Notes under the pieces: generated by a model
Told to the model about the DNA's origin: nothing
The model's input: only the letters and a program-made list of their open reading frames with translations
Database searches by the model: none
Source: Bolinopsis microptera
Lineage: Eukaryota > Ctenophora > Tentaculata > Lobata > Bolinopsidae
Direction: 5' to 3'
Length of the DNA stretch: 64,000 nt
Assembly (NCBI RefSeq): GCF_026151205.1
Contig: NC_087078.1
Location: 11,170,175-11,234,174, forward strand
Shown here: in pieces, positions 326 through 60,600 of the stretch
Layout of the letters: each line of letters starts with the position of its first letter
How positions within the stretch are numbered: position 1 is the stretch's first letter
Position numbers and translations under genes: made by a program

Positions 326-1640
326 GTATGTCAAAAATTTATATTTTCAGTTTATATTACATTTTAAGATCATCAATGATTGGATGTGTACAATATTTTT
401 ATCCATCAAAAATTAATTTTTGATGGTGCGCGGCTTTTGTAGCAAAAGTAAATGTAAAAGTTGCTAGTTGCGTAATTTGACGAAATTCGTTGATTTTTGT
501 CGTATTATCCTGTCATACTCATATCTTCGGTTCCTTGAATGAGATCATTCTGAAAATTGATGAAGACCTTCCAATAGGGCTTTACAACTGCAACTGTCCG
601 AAAAATTTGGTGGATATCGGAGTTTTAATTAATATAGTGATCAAAATGGGGGATAATATGAAAAATACGCTGCTTTTAGCTATAAGTTGTAACATAATGT
701 CATGTGTGTTGTAAAATACCGTATGCTTTAAATTTTTCGGACACTTTCCTAGTGTTAATAAGAATATTAGTAAGCTAACCAATTTTTGTTAAAATTGGAT
801 CAAGGGAACTTAACTGGAAGGTTACTCTATTTGCATTTGTTTCAAGAATTTTGTGCTGGCCGAAATTAGCGCTAAAAAACCATTTTACATACAGTCGGCA
901 TGCGCGGCCTACTGTCGATGGGGCACTACCTAATTATAACTATTTTAGCGCAATGCTTTACTCTGCCGCGCCGCGCACTCAATTATGCTTCTCGCTAGAT
1001 CGGCGAAATGCGTTTTATTACTGTGCCGCGCCGAGCTGCGACGAATTGACATCGTCAAATAATTATAATTACTACTGTTTTGGTTTCATTTACAGATTAT
1101 ATTTCAGATTTAACACAGATATCTTATAAGAAGTCCATATCTTCTAAAATGATCGGTGCATACCGCATCAATCATCAACGGCATCATATTATGTAATGTC
1201 TACCATATAAGTATATAAAGGGAGATGTATATTATAAATTATTCCACCGCATCCACCGCATAGCGTTAAATTCCTGTGTAAACAAGATTGTATCACAAAG
1301 CAGGTGCATTATGATAGCACTTGCATTAAATTTCAAATCTTACTATATATAAAGCGAGACGATATATAAACAGGAATTAAACAGGAATTAAACAGGAATT
1401 AAACAAAATTGGGTCAAACGGCATATGCCGTGTCTGACCAATATAGGAATAGAAGGTTTAATATTCAAAACTACCCCAATGTAACAAATAACCAAACAAG
1501 GTGGTAAAAGTAGATAGCCATGTAAAAGAAATAGCACAGATAGCACAGTCGTATGCAGAAATACTCAGCCAAGAGCACTCAACAATGACAAAGAAAGTAT
1601 CATACAATGTCCACACACTTATCAAAATATACAAAACACG
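326..1640. other. Non-coding stretch with a GC-rich patch and an 11-bp triplet repeat
   Basis: No convincing coding sequence is seen. A GC-rich patch at about 890-1045 contains several GCCGCGCCG-like words in otherwise AT-rich DNA and may be a MITE remnant. Three tandem copies of AAACAGGAATT lie at 1368-1400. Its complement GTTTAATTCCT recurs at about 23010-23035, and the related GTTTAATCCT is found near 3320-3350. Confidence 0.5.
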
Positions 1641-1644
1641 ACAT

Positions 1645-3072
1645 TCATTCAGTATTTTTCTTCGGGAACCTCCGTTCATCGACCTTATTTAAAAACCGTC
1701 CAATGTCTCTAATAGTTGTTGAGTCGTCGAAGATTTCTCCCGGTTCTTCTCTCATTACTAACAGGTCCCTCGTTCGTTGATGCAGGTTTTTGCGTAGGTC
1801 TTCGTATAGGGGGCATTCGTAGAGGATGTGATGCTCATCTTCTATCACTGGATAGGCCCCTGGTAGCTCATAGAGAAGATCTAACAAGTCATCGTCACTT
1901 GAGCAGCAATGTCTGCAGGCCCGATGTTTTATGTTAAACCGCTTTTTCGCCGTAGCGACCAGTTTCAACGTTAAAGCGGTGGGAGCTGCTTCTGAATTGC
2001 GCGATCTTCTTTGAGCAGTTAGGTTTAAGATCAAGGGCTAGATACGTCTCTTGAGCAAACTTTCTCTTCACTAAGTTGTAGAATGATAGTTTTCTGTTAG
2101 ATGTCCTTTCTGTTTCCCATGAGTTTATAAACCACTTTTGCAAACTCATTCTAATCTGGCTTGGTCTTAATCCTTGGTTTCTCTCTGATGCCTCGATGGT
2201 TTCTTGCATCTGCTCGAGAGTGGACTGTGGAGAACCAGCTCAGGTTTAGGGTCGCCTGCTCTTCGAAAGCGTGTCTAGCAAAGCAGTCACGACCGTCTAC
2301 AACCATTTGTTCAAGTCTTTCTTTGTAGTTAAACACTTGCTTTGATAGCGTGATGCCTAGTGGATGCCTGCCTGTGTCACCCCATATCGCAGCATTGGAT
2401 GTTGACTTCCTCACCCCTAAGGTCCATTTCAAAAGAGACAGATGAAAGTTCTCTAGAGGGTCCCTGGCAATGAGTGTACACACGTTTCCTGTTTCTGGTG
2501 TGGTGCTCGTGTTTGTGGGGAAGTTGCGGAACAGAGCTGTGCTTGGCAGCCACACTTGGCAACCATACGACACCACAGGTACAATAAGTGTATCATATAG
2601 CTTGAACAGTATAGATTTCCTGATGTGGCGGGTATCAATGTAGCTTTTCAAAGAGAAATAACTTCTTAATGCTTTTTGCCTCAGCTTTTGTTGTGTTAGC
2701 TTAAGTGATCCGCTCAGAGTAAATGTAATGCCAAGGTAGCAGTACTCTCTCCCGGAGGGGATCTGTTGTTCTCCCAGTTTGAACTCATGACTTTCCTTCA
2801 GATGCCTTCCTGTTGGGTTAAACACAAGGACTGAAGTTTTTCCAATGTTTACTGTCAGGCCCCATTCTGAGCAGTAATTGTTTAGGACATCGAGCATTTG
2901 TTGAAGACTGTGTTTGTTGAGGGCTAGAAGGACAAGGTCGTCTGCCCATAGCAGATGAGTTATATCTGTATCATTTAGGACAGGGACTTTCACTCCTTCG
3001 ATGTTGTTGAGATCATGTGAAAGCTGGTGGACAAAGCATTTAAACAGTTCAGGGGACATGGGGTGTCCTTAT
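1645..3072 (-). pseudogene. 5'-truncated, frameshifted non-LTR retrotransposon (RT palm to C-terminal finger)
   Basis: On the minus strand the first piece (3059 to 2151) starts at GHPMSPELF, the counterpart of the RT QGxPxSP motif. It continues through HLLWADDLVLLA, where the catalytic box reads WADD in place of the usual YADD, then the thumb and LYDTLIVPVVSYGCQVW. A frameshift near 2200 moves to a frame with RKLSFYNL and FRSSSHRFNVETGRYG. Another shift near 1940 leads to a C-terminal finger-like CRHCCSSDDD with EDEHHILYECPLYEDLR. The endonuclease and first half of RT are missing, and an in-frame stop lies just before GHPM. It is the same family as 54150-56330, which repeats the RKLGFYNL, IETGRHG and EDELHVL landmarks. 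Dead copy. Confidence 0.85.
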
Positions 3073-3356
3073 ATATATAGCTTCATTTCATTTCATATCA
3101 CGATCAACATATCATATCATTTTGGAACATGTTCATGGGAATTAAATTATTTTATTTGCACTTGTTTCTCTTTCAACAAAAGATGTGACGAAGTTAAATT
3201 TGTATGATTTTTAAATTTTTATTTTAAGAAAACTCTTGCACATTATTTATTTATTTATTTCTATTATATTGATGTATAGTCAAGACGTGAGTGTTAGGGC
3301 TCTCATTGACAAATTTATGTTTAATCCTGTTTAATGTTTAATCCTGTTTAATTTAT

Positions 3357-3364
3357 ATACATAT
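3357..3364. repeat. Left 8-bp target-site duplication of the hAT element
   Basis: ATACATAT precedes the left terminus and is repeated exactly at 5112-5119 after the right terminus. Confidence 0.85.
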
Positions 3365-3744
3365 TAGGAACCGACCGGATTGGAGTTTTGGCTGCCGGAC
3401 CGGATCTTGCCGGATTTCAATCTCAAATCCGGCAAGCCGGATTTTGCCGGACCGGAACCGGTGGTTTCAGAGTGAAATATAAGGCAGCCGGATCTTGCCG
3501 GATTTTGCCGGATCTTGCCGGAAAATTTAAATTTATATTCTTATTTTTATACTTTTGTGGAATTACACAATAAAATAGTGTCTAACTAACAGTTTTCGCG
3601 CCCGACCTATATTTTAACGATTAATTTTTAGCTAAGTTCAATTTTCAACCAAATAAAAGTCATAATTATGATAGGCATGCAGCAAGTTCATTAAAATTTC
3701 TTAATAGTATGATAATTTCACAATTGTAATAATATTTCCAGATA

Positions 3745-3858
3745 CTATTCTGCAAGATCAGAAGAGCACTTCTTGCAGCTTGCATAAGGGGTCCCATTTT
3801 CTTCTGAGTAGAACAACCAGACGGACGATGTTTTAGATTTACTACTAGTACTAGACAT
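3745..3858 (-). pseudogene. Remnant BED-type zinc-finger N-terminus of hAT transposase
   Basis: The frame runs from ATG at 3858 to TAG at 3745, 37 codons. It contains SSVWLFYSEENG followed by YASCKKCSSDLAE, the W-x-F ... A-x-C-x2-C half of a BED finger, which binds DNA in hAT transposases. The distal His/Cys pair and the whole RNase H-like catalytic domain are absent; only about 380 bp separate the stop from the element end. The position fits an internally deleted transposase gene with an intron in its 5' UTR. Confidence 0.75.
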
Positions 3859-3969
3859 TGTTTAAACAAGCAGTACGTAGCAGACAAAATATAACAAGAG
3901 TAGACACGAGTCACGACACTAGACGAGTAATTATCAGAAATGATATCTAATTGAGTAATTGGCATATGG

Positions 3970-4054
3970 CTTACCTGAGGACCCCAGGCTATTATGTTCA
4001 TTAACATAACGAATAAAGATTTGGCGGAATGACAGGCTGAGCGCGGCCCAGTAA
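3970..4054 (-). promoter_or_regulatory. Exon-like 5' module with splice donor, shared with two other loci
   Basis: Read on the minus strand this segment goes from TTACTGGGC through CAGCCTGTCATTCCGCC to AGCCTGGGGTCCTCAG, then GTAAG, a strong donor. Closely similar sequence, including the donor, lies at 57933-58020 (+). A more diverged copy without the donor lies at 60763-60838 (+), just upstream of a coding exon. Here it probably is the non-coding first exon of the transposase transcript. Confidence 0.55.
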
Positions 4055-4128
4055 CATATGGCAGACCCCTGATTGAGCGCGTTTGTGCGCATTCCTTTTT
4101 CGTCATGCAGGTCTGAGTATCATTGTGT

Positions 4129-4278
4129 CACGTGACTTACAACGAGCGGTGCTTAATAGGGTTGTTCGCAAGCAGACACTGTCTAGTACAGTACTAATCA
4201 CCGTCTGGCGTCTAGAGCTGAGTCACGTGATTGCAGTAATGAGCTAATTACGTAGCCGGTAGCTACCCTGAACACGTG
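4129..4278 (-). promoter_or_regulatory. Three CACGTG E-boxes upstream of the hAT exon module
   Basis: CACGTG occurs at 4129-4134 (inside the palindrome GTCACGTGAC), 4224-4229 and 4273-4278, about 75-220 bp upstream of the exon-like module. This position suits promoter elements for bHLH factors. Function is inferred. Confidence 0.4.
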
Positions 4279-4436
4279 ACCTTCATATTTCGTCACAATC
4301 AGAAGCACAACTGTACCCTGATTCGCATGCAAGCATATATCAGTACTAGAGCTACTGTTCGTAATAAGGTTCGGTTTTCCTCTAATTTAATACTGCCAAG
4401 GTTGCGATTATAGCCGGGGGCTAGCCCAGAGAGGTG

Positions 4437-4964
4437 GCCGAAAATATTTTTTCGGTTTTTTCTTAGTCCGCACCTACCCCTCGATACATAATTCTGGACT
4501 CGAGGTTTCCCCCGGTAATTGAAATTCGATCTCGGAAGGCAGGCCTCCCCTTAGCAACATGAGCTCGGAAGCGGGAGCTCTCGATACAGGAGGTACGTCT
4601 CAAGAACGACTCGGACCAAAAATTTTCTAAGTCAACATTTTTTCTAAGTTTTTCTGAAAACCACTTTTTTTCACGATTCAGGCTACCCTGTTCATTATTA
4701 GCCGAAAATATTTTTTCGGTTTTTCGAAGTCCGCACCTACCCCTCGATACACAATTCTGGACTCGAGGTTTCCCCCGGTAATGTGATCTCGGAAGGCAGG
4801 CATCCCCTTTGCAACACGAGCTCGGAAGCGGGAGCTCCCGATACAGGAGGTACGTCTCGAGAACGACTCGGACCGAAATTTTTTAAGTCAACATTTTTTC
4901 TAAGTTTTTCTGAAAACCACTTTTTTCCACGGTTCAGGCTACCCTGTTTATTTTTAGCCGAAAT
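4437..4964. repeat. 264-bp tandem duplication inside the hAT element
   Basis: GCCGAAAATATTTTTTCGG begins copies at 4437 and 4701, and a third partial copy starts at 4957. Each unit holds the CGATACA..TTCTGGACTCGAGG and GAGCTCGGAAGCGGGAGCTC landmarks. A diverged relic of the ACCCTGTTCATTATTAGC part also occurs at about 20515-20550. Confidence 0.85.
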
Positions 4965-5340
4965 TTTTTTTTGATTTTTTTTTCGGTAAAAAAACTGAAA
5001 TCCGGCAAAAATCCGGCAAATTTTTTCCAGCCGGAGCCGGAGCCGGAACCGGATTTTGAAGCCGGATATCCGGCCGGATCCGAATTCAGCCGGATTTCCG
5101 GTCGGTTCCTAATACATATATTTGAAATCCTATATATATATATTATTATTATTATCAAACTTTACACAAATCCAAAGTAGTTACTAGGAACATCCTAAAG
5201 ACCTGATAAGTCTACTTAAAAGACTTGTAGAACTGAAAACTTACTATAAATACAAAAAATGGAACTTAAAACTGAACTTATCAAAATCAAAAATTATGCA
5301 AAAAATTGAACTTAAAACTGAAATTATCGAACAAACAAAT

Positions 5341-6069
5341 TTAAAATAAATTTCTCCACAATTGGCGGTTCGAGGCTAAATACCTTAAGTCTGTCAAGTT
5401 GTCACTATTATTCAAATTAATCTTTCTTTTATTCAAATCGTCTAAAATAGTTTTAAAAATATTACATTGATGTCTACCAATCCTTCCCCTCATATTTGAC
5501 ATACTATCAACAGCAAAATTTAGAGCTAGTTGTGGTGGTGAGTTGCAGTCGCTACGAAGAATGTGCCCAAACATTTTCCAGCGGGATTTATGAACTCTCT
5601 CTGAAAGTGGAGTTACATTGCAACGAGCATACAAGTCCTTGTTGCTGATGATGCGGGGATAGGTCATGTTGATGATACGTCTTAGATGTTTGCGTTGACA
5701 CACATCAACTTTATTGATAATGTTCTGTGGAGCTGCCCAGCTGTTACAGTTGTACAATAAAACAGGGGTAACAAATGCTTCATACAGCTTGATTTTTACA
5801 GGAAGAGAAATGCGGGATTTCTCTGCCCATACCTTGCTGTATTTCTCAAAGGCAACGTAAGCAAGGATGCATCGGCGAGAGATATCAGCCTTACTGCAGA
5901 GCTTGGATCCAAGAGAAATAGTGTTGCGCCAGGGCTCTCTGTTCTTCACGGGTTCACCCTTGGCGTCTACCTCGTCCTTATCTGCAATGTAGAAGTGGAC
6001 ATGTTCTGTTTTGTCCTCGTTCACAAACAGGTTCCATTCTTCAAGGATCTCCTTACATATGGGCAGCAT
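5341..6069 (-). CDS. Orphan RT C-terminal ORF, tandem unit 1
   Basis: 242 codons from the internal Met of KEMLPICKEI to the natural stop. It is the RT thumb/C-terminal region without the catalytic box: the unit is cut at YADD, leaving only DGDF. The same intact frame recurs in units 2 and 3. It has no known separate function; an in-frame stop lies in the joined 3' UTR upstream. Confidence 0.6.
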   Translation of the reverse strand: MLPICKEILEEWNLFVNEDKTEHVHFYIADKDEVDAKGEPVKNREPWRNTISLGSKLCSKADISRRCILAYVAFEKYSKVWAEKSRISLPVKIKLYEAFVTPVLLYNCNSWAAPQNIINKVDVCQRKHLRRIINMTYPRIISNKDLYARCNVTPLSERVHKSRWKMFGHILRSDCNSPPQLALNFAVDSMSNMRGRIGRHQCNIFKTILDDLNKRKINLNNSDNLTDLRYLASNRQLWRNLF

Positions 6070-6272
6070 TTCTTTAAGAGTTTCCTCATCCTCATCTGCA
6101 AAATCGCCATCGTTACTAGGAACATCCTAAAGACCTGATAAGTCTACTTAAAAGACTTGTAGAACTGAAAACTTACTATAAATACAAAAAATGGAACTTA
6201 AAACTGAACTTATCAAAATCAAAAATTATGCAAAACATTGAACTTAAAACTGAAATTATCGAACAAACAAAT

Positions 6273-7001
6273 TTAAAATAAATTTCTCCACAATTGGCGG
6301 TTCGAGGCTAAATACCTTAAGTCTGTCAAGTTGTCACTATTATTCAAATTAATCTTTCTTTTATTCAAATCGTCTAAAATAGTTTTAAAAATATTACATT
6401 GATGTCTACCAATCCTTCCCCTCATATTTGACATACTATCAACAGCAAAATTTAGAGCTAGTTGTGGTGGTGAGTTGCAGTCGCTACGAAGAATGTGCCC
6501 AAACATTTTCCAGCGGGATTTATGAACTCTCTCTGAAAGTGGAGTTACATTGCAACGAGCATACAAGTCCTTGTTGCTGATGATGCGGGGATAGGTCATG
6601 TTGATGATACGTCTTAGATGTTTGCGTTGACACACATCAACTTTATTGATAATGTTCTGTGGAGCTGCCCAGCTGTTACAGTTGTACAATAAAACAGGGG
6701 TAACAAATGCTTCATACAGCTTGATTTTTACAGGAAGAGAAATGCGGGATTTCTCTGCCCATACCTTGCTGTATTTCTCAAAGGCAACGTAAGCAAGGAT
6801 GCATCGGCGAGAGATATCAGCCTTACTGCAGAGCTTGGATCCAAGAGAAATAGTGTTGCGCCAGGGCTCTCTGTTCTTCACGGGTTCACCCTTGGCGTCT
6901 ACCTCGTCCTTATCTGCAATGTAGAAGTGGACATGTTCTGTTTTGTCCTCGTTCACAAACAGGTTCCATTCTTCAAGGATCTCCTTACATATGGGCAGCA
7001 T
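6273..7001 (-). CDS. Orphan RT C-terminal ORF, tandem unit 2
   Basis: Encodes the same 242 residues as unit 1, with identical start and stop contexts, 932 bp further on. Confidence 0.6.
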   Translation of the reverse strand: MLPICKEILEEWNLFVNEDKTEHVHFYIADKDEVDAKGEPVKNREPWRNTISLGSKLCSKADISRRCILAYVAFEKYSKVWAEKSRISLPVKIKLYEAFVTPVLLYNCNSWAAPQNIINKVDVCQRKHLRRIINMTYPRIISNKDLYARCNVTPLSERVHKSRWKMFGHILRSDCNSPPQLALNFAVDSMSNMRGRIGRHQCNIFKTILDDLNKRKINLNNSDNLTDLRYLASNRQLWRNLF

Positions 7002-7204
7002 TTCTTTAAGAGTTTCCTCATCCTCATCTGCAAAATCGCCATCGTTACTAGGAACATCCTAAAGACCTGATAAGTCTACTTAAAAGACTTGTAGAACTGA
7101 AAACTTACTATAAATACAAAAAATGGAACTTAAAACTGAACTTATCAAAATCAAAAATTATGCAAAACATTGAACTTAAAACTGAAATTATCGAACAAAC
7201 AAAT

Positions 7205-7933
7205 TTAAAATAAATTTCTCCACAATTGGCGGTTCGAGGCTAAATACCTTAAGTCTGTCAAGTTGTCACTATTATTCAAATTAATCTTTCTTTTATTCAA
7301 ATCGTCTAAAATAGTTTTAAAAATATTACATTGATGTCTACCAATCCTTCCCCTCATATTTGACATACTATCAACAGCAAAATTTAGAGCTAGTTGTGGT
7401 GGTGAGTTGCAGTCGCTACGAAGAATGTGCCCAAACATTTTCCAGCGGGATTTATGAACTCTCTCTGAAAGTGGAGTTACATTGCAACGAGCATACAAGT
7501 CCTTGTTGCTGATGATGCGGGGATAGGTCATGTTGATGATACGTCTTAGATGTTTGCGTTGACACACATCAACTTTATTGATAATGTTCTGTGGAGCTGC
7601 CCAGCTGTTACAGTTGTACAATAAAACAGGGGTAACAAATGCTTCATACAGCTTGATTTTTACAGGAAGAGAAATGCGGGATTTCTCTGCCCATACCTTG
7701 CTGTATTTCTCAAAGGCAACGTAAGCAAGGATGCATCGGCGAGAGATATCAGCCTTACTGCAGAGCTTGGATCCAAGAGAAATAGTGTTGCGCCAGGGCT
7801 CTCTGTTCTTCACGGGTTCACCCTTGGCGTCTACCTCGTCCTTATCTGCAATGTAGAAGTGGACATGTTCTGTTTTGTCCTCGTTCACAAACAGGTTCCA
7901 TTCTTCAAGGATCTCCTTACATATGGGCAGCAT
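7205..7933 (-). CDS. Orphan RT C-terminal ORF, tandem unit 3
   Basis: Encodes the same 242 residues as units 1 and 2. It is followed in the 5' direction by the full-length element, whose own C-terminus differs at two residues. Confidence 0.6.
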   Translation of the reverse strand: MLPICKEILEEWNLFVNEDKTEHVHFYIADKDEVDAKGEPVKNREPWRNTISLGSKLCSKADISRRCILAYVAFEKYSKVWAEKSRISLPVKIKLYEAFVTPVLLYNCNSWAAPQNIINKVDVCQRKHLRRIINMTYPRIISNKDLYARCNVTPLSERVHKSRWKMFGHILRSDCNSPPQLALNFAVDSMSNMRGRIGRHQCNIFKTILDDLNKRKINLNNSDNLTDLRYLASNRQLWRNLF

Positions 7934-8136
7934 TTCTTTAAGAGTTTCCTCATCCTCATCTGCAAAATCGCCATCGTTACTAGGAACATCCTAAAGACCT
8001 GATAAGTCTACTTAAAAGACTTGTAGAACTGAAAACTTACTATAAATACAAAAAATGGAACTTAAAACTGAACTTATCAAAATCAAAAATTATGCAAAAC
8101 ATTGAACTTAAAACTGAAATTATCGAACAAACAAAT

Positions 8137-11130
8137 TTAAAATAAATTTCTCCACAATTGGCGGTTCGAGGCTAAATACCTTAAGTCTGTCAAGTTGTCA
8201 CTATTATTCAAATTAATCTTTCTTTTATTCAAATCGTCTAAAATAGTTTTAAAAATATTACATTGATGTCTACCAATCCTTCCCCTCATATTTGACATAC
8301 TATCAACAGCAAAATTTAGAGCTAGTTGTGGTGGTGAGTTGCAGTCGCTACGAAGAATGTGCCCAAACATTTTCCAGCGGGATTTATGAACTCTCTCTGA
8401 AAGTGGAGTTACATTGCAACGAGCATACAAGTCCTTGTTGCTGATGATGCGGGGATAGGTCATGTTGATGATACGTCTTAGATGTTTGCGTTGACACACA
8501 TCAACTTTATTGATAATGTTCTGTGGAGCTGCCCAGCTGTTACAGTTGTACAATAAAACAGGGGTAACAAATGCTTCATACAGCTTGATTTTTACACGAA
8601 GAGAAATGCGGGATTTCTCTGCCCATACCTTGCTGTATTTCTCAAAGGCAACGTAAGCAAGGATGCATCGGCGAGAGATATCAGCCTTACTGCAGAGCTT
8701 GGATCCAAGAGAAATAGTGTTGCGCCAGGGCTCTCTGTTCTTCGCGGGTTCACCCTTGGCGTCTACCTCGTCCTTATCTGCAATGTAGAAGTGGACATGT
8801 TCTGTTTTGTCCTCGTTCACAAACAGGTTCCATTCTTCAAGGATCTCCTTACATATGGGCAGCATTTCTTTAAGAGTTTCCTCATCCTCATCTGCAAAAT
8901 CGCCATCGTCGGCGTATTCCCATTCAATAGGCATGAGGGTCTCGGGGTTGAACGGTGGGTTAGGCCGAATGGTAATCACTACTGCACGGAAGTGGTACAA
9001 AGCTCCAGCAAAGTACAGTGTGAAGAATGCACCAGATGCAGCATCACCTTGAAACGAACCCTCGGATGTTTCAAACTCTAAAGAAATGGTGTTGTTGATT
9101 TTTATCCTCAATTTGGTGTTGGAGAGCAAGTATCTCGCCAAACGAATGTCATCCTCATAACAACCAGCATCAGCCAAAAGATCCAGGATAACTGATCTCT
9201 TGATGGTATCGAAGGCCGAGCTCATGTCGATTCCCATCTTGTGGAACTCCCATCTCTTCTCTTTCACAACAGAAATCAGAATTCGTTGAGTCCAGACAAT
9301 ATTGGCACAACTATGACCAGCCTTGTAGGCATTTTGCCATGGTCCTGTGTACTCTGCAATTTGTCTTTGAATTCTGTGTAGAGTAATCAAGGAGAGCAGT
9401 TTCCTAGTTCCATTCAGAAGGCAAAGAGGTCTGAGGCTCTTTAGAGGTCCTTTTGGTTTCCCTGGCTTCTGAAGAGGGGTTAGAAACCCTTCCGTGAAAG
9501 AGGGTACATGCTCATGTACTTCGAATGATCGATTAATGAGACATGCATATTGCTGGAAGAATACAGGTGGTGCGTACTTCAGCAGCTCGTTAGGAATCTC
9601 ATCAGGACCTACTGCTTTTCCATTTTTCAACTTTGAAGCAGCATATTGGACTTCTAAGGAAGTTATAGGAGTATTCAGAGGACGTGGGAGTCCAGTGAAA
9701 GGTACCAAAGGAGGGTCTGAGCTGGTGTAGTGATTTTTAAACCACTCTCTAATGATACTTGCTTTCATATCGTCACTTGCAACTAGCTGATTTTCAGAGT
9801 TGAAGACAGATATTGGCTCTGACTCTTTGTTGGCAGCAAGAGCTCTGGTAGCCTCGAACATCCTCTTCGTGTCATCTGCAGCGTTGATGGTGTCAGCTAG
9901 TTGGTTGGCTAGAGCTGTCTCTAGCACTTTAAGACGTTTATTGATATCGTTCTTGAGTTTATTGATACGTTTTCTCAATACTGTCCTGTCTCTAACTGAA
10001 TTGTCGTTCAGTTCTTGTAAAAGTTTGTGTCTCTCGTCAGACATATTACATACATGCTGATCTGATGAATGATGATGTCTTTGGGTTTTCTTCTTGACAC
10101 CCACAGTGTTAGAGGCTGAAGACTTGATAGTTTCAAACAGCTGTTCGAATCCTGTCTTAGTGTCAGCGGAAGGTGGAAGACTGTCAATTTGCTGAGTGAC
10201 AGTTTGCTGGTACTGATCTTGTAGTTCCTTGTTACAAACCAGCGATGTCGTGTTGTACCTTTTAGCAGCTGATGTACTGTTTCGGTATAACTTAGTTTGC
10301 TGCCTCAGGTCTATGGTAGCTTTTACAATCTTATGATCAGAATGTAGTTTAGCTCCTGCATAGGCCCTTGCATCATTGAGAAAAACAGTGCTGCGTGACC
10401 GGCATAAAACATAATCAATCTGAGAAAAATAAGGGCGACTTCTTTTGGTCTTCTTGTCTTTCACCCAACCAGTTCTTGTGGTTATATGACGACTGGAATG
10501 ACGAAATGCAGTGTTTGCAGCAAACAAACCATTAGAAACAAGAAAATCCAATAATCTCCCACCATTTTCATTTCGTCTTCCAACGCCATGCCTTCCAATG
10601 TTCTTATGAAGGCCATTTTGAAAGTCATGATCAGACCTTTTGCCAAGTTTGGCATTGAAATCTCCTAGGATCCAGATTTCATGTCTTGCAGGCACATTAA
10701 TTGCTTCCTGAAGCTCACAGTAAAACTGGTCAGTAGCAGCCGGATTTGATAAAGTTTTTGGGTTGGTTGGACTGTAACAGTTCACGATTCGCATTTTGCA
10801 TGGTGGTTTGTTAACAAACTTGGATGGAATAAAAAAGTCCATGAAAGCAACTCGATCGCTGATCTGATGAAATGAACGGAAATAATAATTTACACGAGCG
10901 TTGATTAAGAAACCCAGTCCACCATGACGTCCTGTCTTCTGATCAAACAAAAGGAGGCGATGATTTCCTGGTAGTTTCTTATCCTCAAACTGACAAATTT
11001 TAGTCTCTTGAATCCCTATAATGTCCAAGTCATACCTGTCACAGTCGTTAGCAAGCAAGCACTGCTTGTCTGTCTTCGTCAAACCTCGAACATTCCAAGT
11101 AGCAACGCCGAGAAGAGCAATTGGTAACAA
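8137..11130 (-). CDS. Non-LTR retrotransposon ORF2: AP-like endonuclease and reverse transcriptase
   Basis: The 997-codon frame encodes the enzyme that nicks the target and copies RNA by target-primed reverse transcription. Residues 1-270 are the endonuclease/exonuclease/phosphatase fold: WNVRGL (Asn13), QETK (Glu42), ILGDFNAKLG (156-159) and LHSDHKIV (264-266). RT follows with LKNGKAVGPDEIPNELL, a MGIDMSSAFDTI box A, EGSFQGDAASG box B and YADD at 739-742. After the thumb come VTPVLLYNCNSWA and SRWKMFGHILR. There is no RNase H or gag-like finger. The annotated first codon is TTG directly after an in-frame TAA stop, so the true N-terminus is probably reached by frameshift from the overlapping ATG frame at 11197, or by a downstream start. 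All catalytic residues are present. Confidence 0.9.
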   Translation of the reverse strand: MLPIALLGVATWNVRGLTKTDKQCLLANDCDRYDLDIIGIQETKICQFEDKKLPGNHRLLLFDQKTGRHGGLGFLINARVNYYFRSFHQISDRVAFMDFFIPSKFVNKPPCKMRIVNCYSPTNPKTLSNPAATDQFYCELQEAINVPARHEIWILGDFNAKLGKRSDHDFQNGLHKNIGRHGVGRRNENGGRLLDFLVSNGLFAANTAFRHSSRHITTRTGWVKDKKTKRSRPYFSQIDYVLCRSRSTVFLNDARAYAGAKLHSDHKIVKATIDLRQQTKLYRNSTSAAKRYNTTSLVCNKELQDQYQQTVTQQIDSLPPSADTKTGFEQLFETIKSSASNTVGVKKKTQRHHHSSDQHVCNMSDERHKLLQELNDNSVRDRTVLRKRINKLKNDINKRLKVLETALANQLADTINAADDTKRMFEATRALAANKESEPISVFNSENQLVASDDMKASIIREWFKNHYTSSDPPLVPFTGLPRPLNTPITSLEVQYAASKLKNGKAVGPDEIPNELLKYAPPVFFQQYACLINRSFEVHEHVPSFTEGFLTPLQKPGKPKGPLKSLRPLCLLNGTRKLLSLITLHRIQRQIAEYTGPWQNAYKAGHSCANIVWTQRILISVVKEKRWEFHKMGIDMSSAFDTIKRSVILDLLADAGCYEDDIRLARYLLSNTKLRIKINNTISLEFETSEGSFQGDAASGAFFTLYFAGALYHFRAVVITIRPNPPFNPETLMPIEWEYADDGDFADEDEETLKEMLPICKEILEEWNLFVNEDKTEHVHFYIADKDEVDAKGEPAKNREPWRNTISLGSKLCSKADISRRCILAYVAFEKYSKVWAEKSRISLRVKIKLYEAFVTPVLLYNCNSWAAPQNIINKVDVCQRKHLRRIINMTYPRIISNKDLYARCNVTPLSERVHKSRWKMFGHILRSDCNSPPQLALNFAVDSMSNMRGRIGRHQCNIFKTILDDLNKRKINLNNSDNLTDLRYLASNRQLWRNLF

Positions 11131-11197
11131 GGATTACGGTGTCCAGTTCTACAGCGATCCTTCGCGTAGGGGTAGATAGTCTGGTTGCAGCAACCAT
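11091..11197 (-). CDS. Short overlapping leader ORF at the 5' end of the RTE-like element
   Basis: ATG at 11197 opens a frame of roughly 35 codons (MVAATRLSTPTRRIAVELD...) that overlaps the start of the endonuclease frame and ends about 40 bp inside it. The endonuclease frame lacks an ATG here, so a frameshift would join the two. Overlapping leaders of this kind occur in RTE elements. The exact stop position is approximate. Confidence 0.4.
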
Positions 11198-11235
11198 GCG
11201 AGTTCATCACGAACTACACGCCATCCTAAATATAT

Positions 11236-11643
11236 ATATATATATATGTGTATATATCCGTGCCATTTTACTGACACCACGGCATCAACTTTAACGCGAC
11301 TTTCCGCAAAAACCGTAAAACATATACAACTGAAACTTTTTTGACTGGGTCAAATGCTTTAATGGCCTTCAAATCAGCATGAAAAAATAAAAAATTGGCC
11401 AAGGAATAATAATTTTAGTGCCCAAAATTTGGACTCTCAAGTGGTGTCAAAAACGCGAATTAAATAGGTAATAATTATTTTAGTCTCTCGAGTCTTGACA
11501 CCACTTTAGGGTTAGACGGGTTCCTGCTAGTAATTATAATACTTGTGTGATAGTAACTATCACACAAGTATTTGTGACTCAATCATATCGAGGTTAAAAA
11601 CTGTGCCTTCATTATATGGAGGTTAAGTAACTGTTTACTGTAC
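11236..11643. other. Intron-like DNA 3' of the sulfotransferase exons, with a perfect hairpin
   Basis: No coding exon is seen on either strand. GTGTCA/TGACACC words recur around 11270, 11440 and 11505. The hairpin at 11539-11571 is listed separately. Confidence 0.5.
11539..11571. repeat. Perfect 16-bp inverted repeat (hairpin)
   Basis: ATACTTGTGTGATAGT is followed by one A and then its exact complement, a 33-bp near-palindrome. A cruciform or the tip of a small foldback element is possible. Confidence 0.85.
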
Positions 11644-11771
11644 CTCAATATCTAACAGCTCAATCCAGGGCACTGCCTGGGAAAGGTTGTTTCTGAGTGA
11701 AATCCTGCTGTCCTTGTTCACACCGTTCTTCTCGTAGAGACATTTCAGTATTTGCTGTACCCATAGAGTCC
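11644..11771 (-). CDS. Sulfotransferase (SULT-like) exon 3: helix after the PAPS loop
   Basis: Acceptor ...AAACAG precedes 11771 and donor GTACAG follows 11644. The 128-nt exon (phase 1 in, phase 0 out) encodes GTLWVQQILKCLYEKNG and ends SQAVPWIELLDIE. Joined to the previous exon it forms YPKSGTLWVQQIL, the 5'-phosphosulfate loop of cytosolic sulfotransferases, which transfer sulfate from PAPS to hydroxyl or amine groups. The typical PF(L/I)E segment appears as PWIE. The Thr-Thr of the usual SGTTW is Thr-Leu here. No later exons (RNPKD, RKGxxGDW) were found to the left, where the RTE, hAT and LINE block begins. Confidence 0.82.
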
Positions 11772-11923
11772 CTGTTTATAAGTTAATTAATAACTAAGTA
11801 TTAATTAGTTACAAATTATTAATATTATCCGGTTGATGGTGCTCGTCTGAAAATGATTTTAAAAGGTAATTTAAGGAAGGCAATTGAAAATTAAAATAAT
11901 AAATATCCAAACAGGTTGATAAC

Positions 11924-12001
11924 CTGACTTAGGATAGGTAACCAAAATAACATCGTCATCCCTCAGCTCGTAGTCTGATGTTCTGTGTATCTCGTTGCCG
12001 T
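11924..12001 (-). CDS. Sulfotransferase exon 2: YPKSG half of the PAPS-binding loop
   Basis: The 78-nt exon lies between acceptor ...GATAG and donor GTTATC. It encodes GNEIHRTSDYELRDDD followed by VILVTYPKSG. RDDDVxxVTYPKSG is the hallmark of the SULT family, and the intron splits the loop after YPKSG as in vertebrate SULT genes. Reading phase matches both neighbours. Confidence 0.85.
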
Positions 12002-12035
12002 CTATCAAGTGTTAATCACTAGTTTACTAGAAACT

Positions 12036-12110
12036 TGAAACCTCGACTAAAGTTAACCTTTTTCCATTATTTGTATTAGAGTAAAACATATTCAGAGCTC
12101 CTAACATGTG
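12036..12110. repeat. Diverged fragment of the 30.66-32.14 kb inverted-repeat element
   Basis: ACCTCGACTAAAGTTAACC plus the following ATTAGAG...CAGAGCTCCT matches, with substitutions, the arm sequence near 31880-31945. It lies in the intron between sulfotransferase exons 1 and 2. Confidence 0.6.
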
Positions 12111-12298
12111 ATCATGGTTCCCGGACGAGCTTAAACTTTTGTCATTATTGAGCCTTATGAACGACAGACAAGCATTGACTCACAATTATTTGGATTTATT
12201 TTGGATTTATGAGAACCAGTCCAGCAAAGATTTAGTATTATTACTATTAGGTATACACTTAATCTAGTGCACGGTTAGTAAGCTCACATTAAACGTAC

Positions 12299-12412
12299 CG
12301 GTGGGTATATCTGTCCACACAGAAAGTTGTGTCTGAACGGCAGGTTGAGAGGAGGGAATAAACTTTTTATGGGCATATTCCAATCCATGTCGAGTTAAAA
12401 TGCAGGTGGTTA
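12299..12412 (-). CDS. Candidate sulfotransferase exon 1
   Basis: The 114-nt segment lies between an acceptor-like CTAG and donor GTACGT. In the only phase compatible with exon 2 it reads GLEYAHKKFIPSS followed by QTQLSVWTDIPT, without stops. Weakly similar Y-x-G-x-x-F regions precede the RDDD motif in SULT proteins. It has no ATG in this frame, so a further upstream exon is expected. An ATG in another frame (MDWNMPIKSL) does not match the splice phase. Confidence 0.45.
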
Positions 12413-13175
12413 CTAGTAACAAATAGAATTAGACAATAAATAAGCTAGTGTTAAAAGTGTAGTGGGCCAAGGTTTTACTTTCAGATTTAACCCACGCATT
12501 ATATTGCATATATTGTGTAAAATTTCAAGTTTCAGGTGCCAATTTGAGATCAGACCTTTGGAAGCTTTACTTTTTACAAGTTTTTCGCACAATTAAGTTT
12601 ACTACCATGAGTTTCTAAAATTTCGTAAGTCAAAATAAATGAACACATATTGCTGAACTTATCAAAAATTCACCTATTAAAATACAAAGTAAAATAAAAA
12701 TTCTGAAGTTCCAACAGGTCTAAAACAAGATTACCCAACAAAGATATAATTATAATACCTATATAGAATAAAATATGTAATCAAAATAAAAAATGTAACT
12801 AACTAAAAAATCTGTGATTAATCAGTCACTCAGTAATACTAAAGATTTCCATTAACTTACTAACTTAACATTATAATCGATTTAACGGAGAATATCGACA
12901 AAAATCATTCATAAAGTCATGATGTATTATAATCAAGAGGTCTTAAACAATAACCCTTAAATCAATTTCAAATGTTAAACACGAAATAAGTAAACACAAA
13001 AGGCTGACATTAACTTTAAATCAATAATTATTTACCAATGAAATTATTTAACATGTTCTACTTTTGGTCCACCAATGCTGGATATAACTGAATATGATCA
13101 TTGTGGCACGTGATAACCATCAAATACGTGGTGCGTGATCAAACACGTGAGCACACACATAAAGTGCACCTAAAA
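12413..13175. other. AT-rich intergenic spacer between the sulfotransferase and zinc-finger genes
   Basis: No exon recognised. CACGTG E-boxes occur near 13110 and 13145, close to the zinc-finger gene's 3' end. Confidence 0.5.
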
Positions 13176-23728: not shown

Positions 23729-24241
23729 TTTTTTGAGAGTTACTCATAAATTTATGGTCGATTTCCGATTCACGCATCGACAGCTTCAAGAATGATCACG
23801 GTATAGATTACCCAATCTATATTTATTGACTGCAGATTCGGCTAGCTGCAAAATATGATTTACTTGACTTGCAAGTGCAACGTCACGATTTTTCGATTCT
23901 TTGTTACCCTCAGATCAGTAAATCACATACTAACGCGTAAGAAAATGCTGCGTGAGGGCGCCATGTGTCAGGGATTTAACTTTCATACTTTTTTGAGAGT
24001 TACTCATAAATTTATGGTCGATTTCCGATTCACGCATCGACAGCTTCAAGAATGATCACGGTATAGATTACCCAATCTATATTTATTGACTGCAGATTCG
24101 GCTAGCTGCAAAATATGATTTACTTGACTTGCAAGTGCAACGTCACGATTTTTCGATTCTTTGTTACCCTCAGATCAGTAAATCACATACTAACGCGTGA
24201 GAAAATGCTGCGTGAGGGCGCCATGTGTCAGGGATTGAACT
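23729..24241 (+). repeat. 260-bp tandem duplication
   Basis: TTTTTTGAGAGTTACTCAT starts units at 23729 and 23989. Each unit contains GATTCACGCATCGACAGC and ACGTCACGATTTTTCG, and the copies differ at only a few bases. Its first 40 bp recur inverted at about 18003-18040. Confidence 0.92.
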
Positions 24242-25033
24242 ATCATCCTTATTTATTTTATTTTCATTATTATTTGCTGTTTACTTGCGCTGCAGCATGG
24301 CCATCAACTGAAATTACCACCCTTATGCCTTACTTCGGACAACCATGGCTACATAGTTACGCTGTAACCGGCACTTACAGGAAACCAAAGGATAAAGTAC
24401 TATTACTAAGGCCAGCGACGGTCAGGGACAAAATGAAATCGCAGCATGTGCGGGATCGCGATTTTTCCCATTTTGTAGCCCTATATATTTTGAGCATCCT
24501 TGCCACAGATTTTTTGAGTTAAGTATTTTGTTTGGTCATCTATAACCTCTGTACCAGCCGGCCTGTACCAACCCTGTCCCGGCACGATTTGTTGTATAAC
24601 TCCGAGTCATATGAACTTAGTGATTTCGTGATAGTCGACCAATATGGCCAGGACTTATTTTCAATATTTTTACGATTCCCTGTTTTATTAAGTTCATGAC
24701 GTGCTTATTACCATCAGTATCACTGCTTGTAGTTCATATTTTTTCTTTAGCATAGATTCCCTTCCTCATTGCTTTAACCGTGCCTTAACCGTGCCTTAAC
24801 CGTGCCTTAACCGTGTTATGCCACACTACCGAATTGCCCATTTTTCAAACATGAAGCGGATAAGCGACATTATCTGTGCTCAACGGTTAACAGAAACCGA
24901 AGCAAAGCTATTATATTGTTCAAACGATAAATTATCCTAATTTGTATAACAATTAAATTTCATTCATAACTTTCCATGTTTTGCAGCATATTTCAATCAA
25001 ATTTTTAACCCCATTCCTTTTAGTTTTCAAGCA
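24242..25033. other. Upstream region of the carbonic anhydrase gene
   Basis: 24290-24522 is open on the plus strand (WPSTEITTLMPYFGQPWLHS...) but unrecognised. TGCCTTAACCG is repeated three times at 24781-24813. Two acceptor-like pyrimidine tracts end at 24986 (TTTTGCAG) and 25023 (TTCCTTTTAG), so a 5' UTR intron or trans-splice acceptor is likely close to the start codon. Confidence 0.45.
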
Positions 25034-25990
25034 ATGAAGTTGTTGCTACTTGTCGGGGCTGTGCTAACAGTGGGCTGGGCTGCTGACGGTGCATACTCCT
25101 ACGATGATCAGGCAGCTTGGGGCGGAGTTTGTACCACTGGTAAACACCAGTCTCCAATAGACATAAACAAGGTAACGGACACCGTTTACTACGGCTCAAT
25201 GATTTCATCTTTCGGCGAGGAAGTAAAAATTGAAAAGAAAACGGAGGGTCTGATGACCGTTCAATGGGACCTCACGGACACCCCTATATTCAAGAACTTT
25301 CCAGATGACTGGCCGGTGGGTCAAACCAAGGGTCTTCAGGGTCTTCAAATGCATGTCCACTGGGGAAAGACGAGAACGTATGGGTCAGAGCACAGGCTGA
25401 ACGGGAAACAATACGACGGAGAAATACACCTGGTCACAAGGAACCTCGACCAGGACGACGAGAACGCAAGCGATTACTACGCCGTGTTGGGAGTCTTCAT
25501 TGAAGCGGTAGACGAAGGTTTTGACCTTGATATCGACGAAGACGCGGACCAATATATATCAGGAATGGTATCCGGCAGAAACGACGCTGTAGACCTGGAT
25601 GTGCTGTTTGGACAGCAAGGAACAAATAAACATAAAAATAGCGTGTTCACCTACGAGGGAAGTTTGACGACACCTGGTTGTGATGAGAAGGTATTCTGGC
25701 AGGTTCTGGAGAAACCGGTTCTGCTTTCATCATCTTACTTCGACGGAATCCGGGAGGAACTAGAAACGGTCGAGTATAACCACAGGGATATTCAGGAGCT
25801 GAACGGTCGACACATCACACACCGTCTCCTAAACCAACTGCATACTTCTGAAGGTGGTCAGTCTGATTCATTTTGCAAAGTTGACTGTCAGGCTGCACAG
25901 CAGACGTGCATGGGGGCCATGAGTGGTACTGCTGCAACATCTCTCCCTTCACTCGCTCTTCTCTTCGCAGCACTGGTCTATCTCATGTAG
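25034..25990 (+). CDS. Secreted / GPI-anchored alpha-carbonic anhydrase
   Basis: The single-exon, 318-codon frame encodes an enzyme that hydrates CO2 to bicarbonate with an active-site zinc, at the cell surface or outside the cell. A signal peptide covers about residues 1-19 (MKLLLLVGAVLTVGWAADGA). QSPIDI is at 39-44. Zinc ligands are His107 and His109 (MHVHWG) and His132 (GEIHLV), with gatekeeper Glu119. The substrate pocket SLTTPGC is at 210-216, with Trp222. Cys33 and Cys216 should form the disulfide usual in secreted family members. A Cys-rich segment (281-292) and a hydrophobic end LPSLALLFAALVYLM suggest GPI attachment. The usual NNGHS proton-shuttle region is changed (TVQWDLTDTP), so the His64 equivalent is missing and turnover may be slower. 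The ATG follows a pyrimidine tract and AG by 10 bp. Confidence 0.96.
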   Translation: MKLLLLVGAVLTVGWAADGAYSYDDQAAWGGVCTTGKHQSPIDINKVTDTVYYGSMISSFGEEVKIEKKTEGLMTVQWDLTDTPIFKNFPDDWPVGQTKGLQGLQMHVHWGKTRTYGSEHRLNGKQYDGEIHLVTRNLDQDDENASDYYAVLGVFIEAVDEGFDLDIDEDADQYISGMVSGRNDAVDLDVLFGQQGTNKHKNSVFTYEGSLTTPGCDEKVFWQVLEKPVLLSSSYFDGIREELETVEYNHRDIQELNGRHITHRLLNQLHTSEGGQSDSFCKVDCQAAQQTCMGAMSGTAATSLPSLALLFAALVYLM

Positions 25991-58740: not shown

Positions 58741-60600
58741 ACCTTACCTTTGATACCTTTGATCTGCTTCGTCGAAACTCGACAGGCCATCAGAGTTGCT
58801 GACCACCCCAGAGAGCAGATGCCTCTCGATCGTTACGCCAGTCCAGTATAGAATTGGAGTTCGGTGATGTGAAGCCCCGGATTGGCGGTTTATCCGGCAA
58901 GGAAAGCATGAATGCCGTCATATGATGCTTGAAGCCATCATGTTTGGAGACTGCACGTATGTGCGAAGGTATACAGTTCCAGAGTCTGGGACCCATTACA
59001 CCAAATGATGTTTCATAAAGAGTCTGGTGAGCAGCTGAGCTTTTTGTACGGACAGCTGGAACCTTAGCAAGGGTACCCAATCGTGGATTTACTGTGAACT
59101 GTACTTCAAGGTCGTTGGATGTGAAACCATGTAGGATTTTCCACATGTGCATGACAATGTAACGTTCTCTGCGCCTCTGAAGTGACATGAGGGACAGGGT
59201 TTTTATGCGATCCCAATAATGGAGATGCTGTAAACCATGGATCTTTGAAGTGAAAGTTTTTTGTACACTGTCAAGCTCCTGAATGTCATACACTTTGGCC
59301 GGATTCCACAGAGGAGAGCAATACTCTAAGTGGCTACGGACTAGTGACTTGTATAGTGTTAACATAACACCAGTATTGCGAGAGTGGAAGACACTGAATA
59401 CCCATGCTGCCATCTTCCTCGCTTTATCACAACTAGATCGTATGTGTGATGTCCAGGACGTATCACTGGATACTGTTATACCGAGATCACGGAGCTGATC
59501 CACAGGAGTGAGTATAGTACCAGTTGATGTTCTGTATTGGAACTGTTCATGGACAAAAGGAAGCTCATAGAGAGGATTACGTTTGTTGGCAAGATGACAT
59601 ATGTACTCAAACTTATCCTCATGTAGTGCCATGTTGTTTCTTGATGACCACTCAGTGACTTTGTCAAGATCAGACTGAAGCTCAGTAACATTATGTGAAT
59701 CACTGATGGATCTGCAAATTCTTGTGTCGTCAGCGAAATATCTTATTGTTGAACGCCACACGCATCTAGCAATGTCATTAATGAATATTAAAAACAGTAT
59801 GGGACCTAAAACTGTTCCTTGGGGGACACCACTCATAATAAGAGCAATGATAGACATGTGACCATCTACAACAACTTGTTGAGTTCTATTCGTAAGAAAT
59901 GACTCGATCCAGATGATGATTTTGGGATGAAAACCATATAGCTGCAGTTTTTTGATAAGAAGTTGATGATCTACTTTATCAAAAGCCTTGGCATAATCCA
60001 AGTATATAGCGTCCATGTCGTCACCATTTGATAACGCCTCGATGATGTCATCAAAATGATGAAGCAGCTGAGTGAGACAACTTTTCCCCGATCGGAAGCC
60101 ATGCTGCTTGCTATTGAGAAGGTTGTTTTCTTCGAGGTGGGCCACCATCTGTTTTCGTAGAACTCGCTCATAGATCTTAATGACATGAGAAGTTAACGAC
60201 ACAGGTCTGTAGTTTCCCGCAATAGCACGACTGCCTTTCTTGTGAAGTGGACCAATGTTTGATGTCTTGTAGAACTTCGGCACTGTGCCTGTAGACATAG
60301 AATGCTGCCAAATCATGTGTAGAACAGTTCTGTTATTGGATCGGTCCTTAGATGGATCATAGGCCGTGAGAACAGACTTCGTAAGTGCATCTGCTTTTGG
60401 ATTCGCCATGAGACCACCAATGACCAACCGAACCTTTTCATCAAAGTTTTCAATCATAATTGTACATGTACAATGTATAGTATCCGAAAGCTGCCCAGTA
60501 TACACTACACACACTGTGATGAGTTGTACGTCTTATCTCAAATGAAATTTGCTGATAAGGGAGTAACAAAAACGCAACAAATGCAAAATCAATTTTACTA
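58741..60600 (-). mobile_element. CR1-like non-LTR retrotransposon, 5'-truncated
   Basis: Contains the 574-codon RT frame and a 3' end with ACCTTTGATACCTTTGATC, a short tandem 3' tail as in CR1/L2 elements. The endonuclease is absent. The 19.39-19.91 kb copy shares the same 3' end. The 5' border is approximate. Confidence 0.82.
58790..60514 (-). CDS. CR1-clade reverse transcriptase (endonuclease-less ORF2 part)
   Basis: 574 codons. NIGPLHKKGSRAIAGNYRPV is at about 86-105, box A YLDYAKAFDKVDH at 171-183 with catalytic Asp173, and box B SGVPQGTVLGPILF at 228-241. FADD at 260-263 is the variant of YADD. SLVRSHLEYCSPLWNP and LMSLQRRRERYIVMHMWKIL follow. The frame is free of stops, so the insertion is young, but without an endonuclease it cannot retrotranspose alone. 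The first Met lies in sequence unlikely to be the native start. Confidence 0.9.
   Translation of the reverse strand: MCVVYTGQLSDTIHCTCTIMIENFDEKVRLVIGGLMANPKADALTKSVLTAYDPSKDRSNNRTVLHMIWQHSMSTGTVPKFYKTSNIGPLHKKGSRAIAGNYRPVSLTSHVIKIYERVLRKQMVAHLEENNLLNSKQHGFRSGKSCLTQLLHHFDDIIEALSNGDDMDAIYLDYAKAFDKVDHQLLIKKLQLYGFHPKIIIWIESFLTNRTQQVVVDGHMSIIALIMSGVPQGTVLGPILFLIFINDIARCVWRSTIRYFADDTRICRSISDSHNVTELQSDLDKVTEWSSRNNMALHEDKFEYICHLANKRNPLYELPFVHEQFQYRTSTGTILTPVDQLRDLGITVSSDTSWTSHIRSSCDKARKMAAWVFSVFHSRNTGVMLTLYKSLVRSHLEYCSPLWNPAKVYDIQELDSVQKTFTSKIHGLQHLHYWDRIKTLSLMSLQRRRERYIVMHMWKILHGFTSNDLEVQFTVNPRLGTLAKVPAVRTKSSAAHQTLYETSFGVMGPRLWNCIPSHIRAVSKHDGFKHHMTAFMLSLPDKPPIRGFTSPNSNSILDWRNDREASALWGGQQL

Follow-up and report, generated by a model that had tools for sequence, protein, structure and literature searches.

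A head-to-tail array of four 932-bp units attached to a LINE in the ctenophore Bolinopsis microptera

The LINE and its 932-bp units

We analyzed a stretch of 64,000 nucleotides from the genome of Bolinopsis microptera (C7:11170175-11234174; contig NC_087078.1), which is called the window below and to which all coordinates refer unless stated otherwise. On its minus strand, the window carries a long interspersed nuclear element (LINE), the 3' part of which is present as four head-to-tail units of 932 bp. The units start at positions 5180, 6112, 7044, and 7976 (spacings of 932, 932, and 932 bp) and the array ends at 8907. These data bear out a preliminary description prepared from the sequence alone, according to which the 3' third of a retrotransposon is repeated three extra times at 932-bp spacing between 5180 and 8907. 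Each unit extends from the YADD codons of the reverse transcriptase to a point about 37 bp inside the 3' end of the LINE. The features of the locus are as follows:

5131..5142, no strand: AT repeat at the 3' outer end; its counterpart at the 5' outer end (about 11230-11247) has a 13-bp word in common with it
5143..11230, ends approximate, minus strand: whole LINE insertion including the array, delimited by its ends and flanks and by alignment to the copies with the same 5' end (L012, L013, L017, L018, L024, L028)
5143..5179, minus strand: last ~37 bp of the 3' untranslated region (UTR) plus microsatellite tail (TGATAATAATAATAATA, coding strand), present once
5180..6111, minus strand: unit 1, the outermost, with the family state at three variable sites
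5341..6069, minus strand: 242-codon open reading frame of unit 1, region C-terminal to YADD (same at 6273-7001 and 7205-7933)
6112..7043, minus strand: unit 2, derived C at 6236
7044..7975, minus strand: unit 3, equal to unit 2 in sequence, derived C at 7168
7976..8907, minus strand: unit 4, which runs into the LINE body; derived C at 8100, private changes at 8597 (P to R) and 8744 (V to A)
8137..11130, minus strand: open frame of 997 amino acids with Exo_endo_phos endonuclease and RVT_1 reverse transcriptase; YADD codons at 8905-8916

Exo_endo_phos and RVT_1 lie in one frame and both scored above the cut-off in a Pfam scan, which characterizes the element as an endonuclease-encoding retrotransposon lacking long terminal repeats. 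Its size without the three extra units is about 3.3 kb. Searches of PDB and Pfam identified general LINE domains only; judged from the C-terminal motifs and the tail, the element may be RTE-like. Phage records were searched as well and contained no match, in keeping with the eukaryotic nature of the element. The long frame (8137-11130) opens with TTG just before the endonuclease domain and a stop codon is located upstream; judged by eye, a short frame in a different phase starts from an upstream ATG. Four of the six other copies with a full 5' end (L012, L017, L018, L028) carry five or six consecutive T in front of AGGATGG, a run that is missing in L013 and L024.

When a unit was used as query against the assembly (264.7 Mb, 232 contigs) and 40 of 146 candidates were scored, we obtained 47 matches, among which the window array was the sole tandem set. 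Four of these matches were located in the window and 43 elsewhere, at 39 places by count, and the best-scoring 20 were fetched for comparison. They represent 19 independent insertions: L026 and L027 share the same 3' flank and count as a single insertion, which was duplicated along with its surroundings. At the 3' end, TTTGATAATA is present in all 20 other copies, and the flanks beyond differ except for the pair L026/L027. The 5' ends vary among the fetched copies and many of them stop short of the full 5' end. Target duplications were explored in 16 of the 20 copies (L026, L027, L030, and L031 were left out). Here, we found a common flank word of at least 9 bp in 10 of 16 copies, and for seven of these 10 the word was matched by at most one of 200 shuffles; one of these seven (L023) has a repetitive flank. 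For the remaining three (L012, L016, L021), 9, 12, and 19 of 200 shuffles gave a match. The flank words of L015, L018, L020, L022, and L029 (at most 6 bp) and of L017 (7 bp) were no better than shuffles. With a common 3' end carrying a short-repeat tail, variable 5' truncation, and short target-site duplications, the family shows the features of a LINE.

The tail TGATAATAATAATAATA is seen once, left of 5180, and the AT repeat flanks the whole structure; we therefore read the array as one insertion. The 13-bp word present at both outer ends is only suggestive of a target duplication, and it does not prove one because it is simple sequence.

Each of units 1-3 carries an intact 242-codon frame, as had been described before. 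Scanning the frame of unit 1 did not identify any Pfam family. Since units 1-3 carry at most one locus-private change each, intact frames are expected without selection, and we read them here as passive copies. A function of the array is not evident.

Junctions, variable sites, and order of growth

All three junctions between the units are identical. The body-side break falls between the two Asp codons of YADD (8908-8910 / 8905-8907) or at most two bases beyond. Its position is ambiguous to this extent because the joined points have GT in common (AC when read on the coding strand) and no more, which corresponds to a microhomology of 2 bp. Within this ambiguity, the units indeed break at the same base in the YADD codons and rejoin in the 3' UTR, as the preliminary description had stated. 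When we searched the whole assembly with a 36-nt pattern of the junction (up to three mismatches), it was found three times, always in the window array. Other loci with the same junction, for which a search had been proposed, and daughter copies of the multimer were not detected in the 264.7-Mb assembly, and the idea that the array serves as a source of multimeric 3' ends thus finds no support. When the 3' UTR was used as query and 40 of 165 candidates were scored, no matches among those listed were located within a few kb of each other beyond three in the array; this list misses unit 4.

Across the 4 x 932 bases, three positions vary (5304, 5801, and 5948 when projected onto unit 1). From unit 1 to unit 4, the bases are A, C, C, C at 5304, G, G, G, C at 5801, and A, A, A, G at 5948, so that the units read AGA, CGA, CGA, and CCG. 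The family state is AGA: all 20 other copies carry A at 5304 and G at 5801, and 19 of the 20 carry A at 5948 (the match of L031 ends at 5935 and the site lies beyond). Because the other copies read A, G, A, unit 1 has the family state at all three sites, and units 2 and 3 carry one derived 3' UTR base. For the same reason, the changes of unit 4 at the sites corresponding to 5801 and 5948 are private and the shared states are ancestral. The preliminary description had noted two residues (V/A, P/R) at which the extra units differ from the parent, and this difference is real. The conclusion drawn from it, that the extra units were amplified from one another, is not supported and has the polarity reversed, since the family states match the extra units and it is unit 4 that has changed.

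The informative site is the derived C at 5304, which is common to units 2-4 and absent from unit 1. Its distribution fits growth of the array after a mutation in an inner unit, with the first duplication, the mutation, and the expansion in this order. Judged from the pattern of states, the mosaic units 2 and 3 are a product to be expected if units 1 and 4 underwent unequal exchange; slippage by single units, prior to the two changes of unit 4, would explain them equally well. At positions 5187, 5332, and 5400, all four units carry states for which L012 and L013 are the sole matches in the set of 20 other copies, and the LINE body matches the states of these two copies at 9767, 9768, and 11204. 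Therefore, the units derive from the window element or its subfamily. An origin of the outer and the inner units from different source RNAs finds no support, because the other copies that cover the three variable sites all agree there.

The LINE body was compared with 15 of the 20 fetched copies, of which 14 cover position 9158 and six cover positions 10887 and 11106. We observed three private substitutions (9158, 10887, 11106) in 2318 bp of the body and no locus-private change common to all four units. When the counts of units 1 and 4 and of the body were entered into a simple Poisson model, the first duplication was placed at a median of 0.21 of the element's age with a 95% upper limit of 0.61, a rough estimate from few events. 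According to this model, the first duplication may have occurred early in the life of the insertion.

Origin of the array and its surroundings

We consider it probable that a single LINE insertion was followed soon by a tandem duplication of its 3' part at the DNA level and then by unequal exchange or slippage. A LINE copy would have been inserted by target-primed reverse transcription into an AT repeat, and its 3' 932 bp would have been duplicated in tandem soon afterward. The first join would have connected two unrelated points with 2 bp of microhomology, either by end joining or by replication-template switching, and either unequal exchange between the near-identical units or slippage would then have brought the array from two units to four. 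The identical junctions fit such growth because it copies the junction exactly. We infer target-primed reverse transcription from the tail and the target duplications of the family, and we likewise infer how the first join was made at the molecular level and how the array grew. Head-to-tail duplications are common in the DNA covered here: across 204,020 bases of the window and the fetched loci, the latter chosen because they hold the family of the window LINE, we counted at least six besides the window array with units of at least 80 bp and at least 90% identity (short-unit arrays excluded).

Several observations weigh against this sequence of events. A microhomology of 2 bp or more has a chance probability of about 16% and is, therefore, weak evidence. 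The early date is just as compatible with a template jump during the insertion. Since units 2 and 3 do not differ, gene conversion or slippage by single units would explain them no less well than crossing-over. AT-repeat flanks of such simple sequence do not prove a target duplication, and the number of four units is that given by the assembly sequence.

The two-unit structure might also have been made at insertion, although we rate this as rather unlikely. Here, the reverse transcriptase would have copied the tail plus about 932 nt and then quit the template at the YADD codons. It would have resumed synthesis on an RNA, at a point about 37 nt short of the 3' end, and proceeded to the 5' end; DNA exchange would later have enlarged the two-unit array to four units. 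A duplication at insertion agrees with the date estimate, and so does the finding that all units together lack a common locus-private change. However, both the start and the landing point of such a jump are internal, whereas the activity cited for template jumping is reported to be end-to-end. Moreover, none of the 20 other copies has a 5' end or break at 8907, so that neither a pausing nor a truncation hotspot is visible there, and three jumps at one base are required unless DNA exchange supplied the rest. The more far-reaching idea that the enzyme jumped in cis from the codons of its catalytic motif to its own 3' UTR, that the element had a multimeric 3' end at birth, and that LINE integration thus seeds satellite arrays which unequal exchange merely enlarges, appears unlikely to us.

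It is quite improbable that the true locus has one unit or another number and was expanded by the assembler. Units 2 and 3 are identical over 932 bp and the assembly shows no second haplotype (the whole right flank was matched at one place with 40 of 2509 candidates scored), but three substitutions distinguish the units, at sites that are uniform in the other copies, and the contig measures 20.1 Mb. In addition, joins of two non-homologous points are seldom invented by assemblers. Rolling reverse transcription of a circular 932-nt RNA would yield identical junctions in one step. We regard it as highly improbable since the copy also includes the tail at one end and the complete 5' body at the opposite end, which implies that the enzyme entered and left the circle at the same base, and the shared C at 5304 leans toward changes acquired in genomic DNA before amplification. 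A back-spliced circle is not suggested either: inspected by eye at the three possible offsets on either strand, AG before and GT after the unit do not occur together. Separate 5'-truncated insertions, one inside or beside another, would be in line with the many fetched copies that stop short of the full 5' end. This explanation is contradicted by internal junctions without tail or extra sequence and by the same breakpoints occurring three times, and its probability is almost negligible. Tandem duplication inside one insertion, with the tail at the outer end only, had already been preferred to independent truncated insertions in the preliminary description, and our data agree with this.

The host DNA to the right of the LINE (11531-12681) has two paralogues of 91% identity just left of the window (locus L032). 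There, the paralogues sit 52-53 bp from sequence resembling window 1259-1337, whereas the same distance in the window is about 10.2 kb, and L032 contains no match to window 1338-11248, a stretch of about 10 kb that includes mobile elements. Therefore, the LINE sits among insertions in a locally duplicated host segment. A repeat of about 300 bp (11240-11540) adjoins the 5' end of the LINE and is found with 98-100% identity at 36 or more other places (40 of 2509 candidates scored). An element at 3365-5111, presumably hAT-like, has TAGGAACCGACCGGA as its inverted ends and is flanked by ATACATAT on either side (3357-3364, 5112-5119). Within this element, a direct repeat of about 264 bp with 90% identity is located at 4437-4979.

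Other tandem structures were seen at further copies of the family. In L026 (3316-4465 of that locus), the LINE copy is interrupted by an insert with three head-to-tail 347-bp units, and the LINE halves overlap by 10 bp. Among the matches listed, LINE matches follow one another at intervals of about 22 kb (in one case about 44 kb) on C5 (5.46-5.50 Mb) and C6 (14.42-14.51 Mb), which suggests segmental tandem arrays on two chromosomes. The window also contains pieces of other reverse-transcriptase elements (RVT_1) at 58790-60532 and 2151-3059, and a frame of 346 amino acids for a eukaryotic-type carbonic anhydrase (24950-25990) near a 260-bp tandem duplication (23729-24254).

Comparison with known systems

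LINE-tail repeats of this kind are how some satellite DNAs are thought to begin. The window array can be read as a young intermediate between a LINE and a tandem array, in which the parent, the tail, the junction, and the order of growth are visible at one locus. If populations were shown to carry alleles that differ in unit number (one, two, or more), the step from transposon to tandem array would be directly traceable; otherwise, the array represents ordinary genome turnover.

Satellites derived from LINE 3' parts are already in print, and the window array is a short new example. In a review, the HinfI/SCR1 satellite of chicken is traced to CR1 (3' UTR and partial ORF2) and the common cetacean satellite to the 3' end of L1 (PMC9659126). 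As in these systems, the 3' part of a LINE is tandemly repeated in the window, and the chicken repeat likewise combines UTR with a coding part. The head-to-tail array of a partial LINE thus has its counterpart here, but long arrays or many arrays in the genome were not found with the junction pattern or among the 3' UTR candidates scored: the window array comprises just four units at one locus, is attached to its parent LINE with one tail, and is not a satellite by amount.

Models for the duplication of transposon portions and their subsequent expansion include microhomology end joining, non-allelic homologous recombination, and unequal crossing-over, according to two reviews (PMC12628747, PMC9659126). 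They resemble the history proposed here in having two steps, a first join and then homologous growth. In the form attributed to Wong and Choo, as outlined there, crossing-over takes place between homologous elements, whereas the first join in the window connects non-homologous points of one element.

Tandem R1 arrays in the ribosomal DNA of Drosophila have been discussed together with template jumping, and the tandem R1 form of D. melanogaster is said to have arisen by amplification of an original unique event (PMC2718515). The two systems are alike in that LINEs are arranged head-to-tail. However, the R1 arrays consist of consecutive R1 elements usually separated by a 14-bp target duplication, whereas the window units are partial and no target sequence is located between them.
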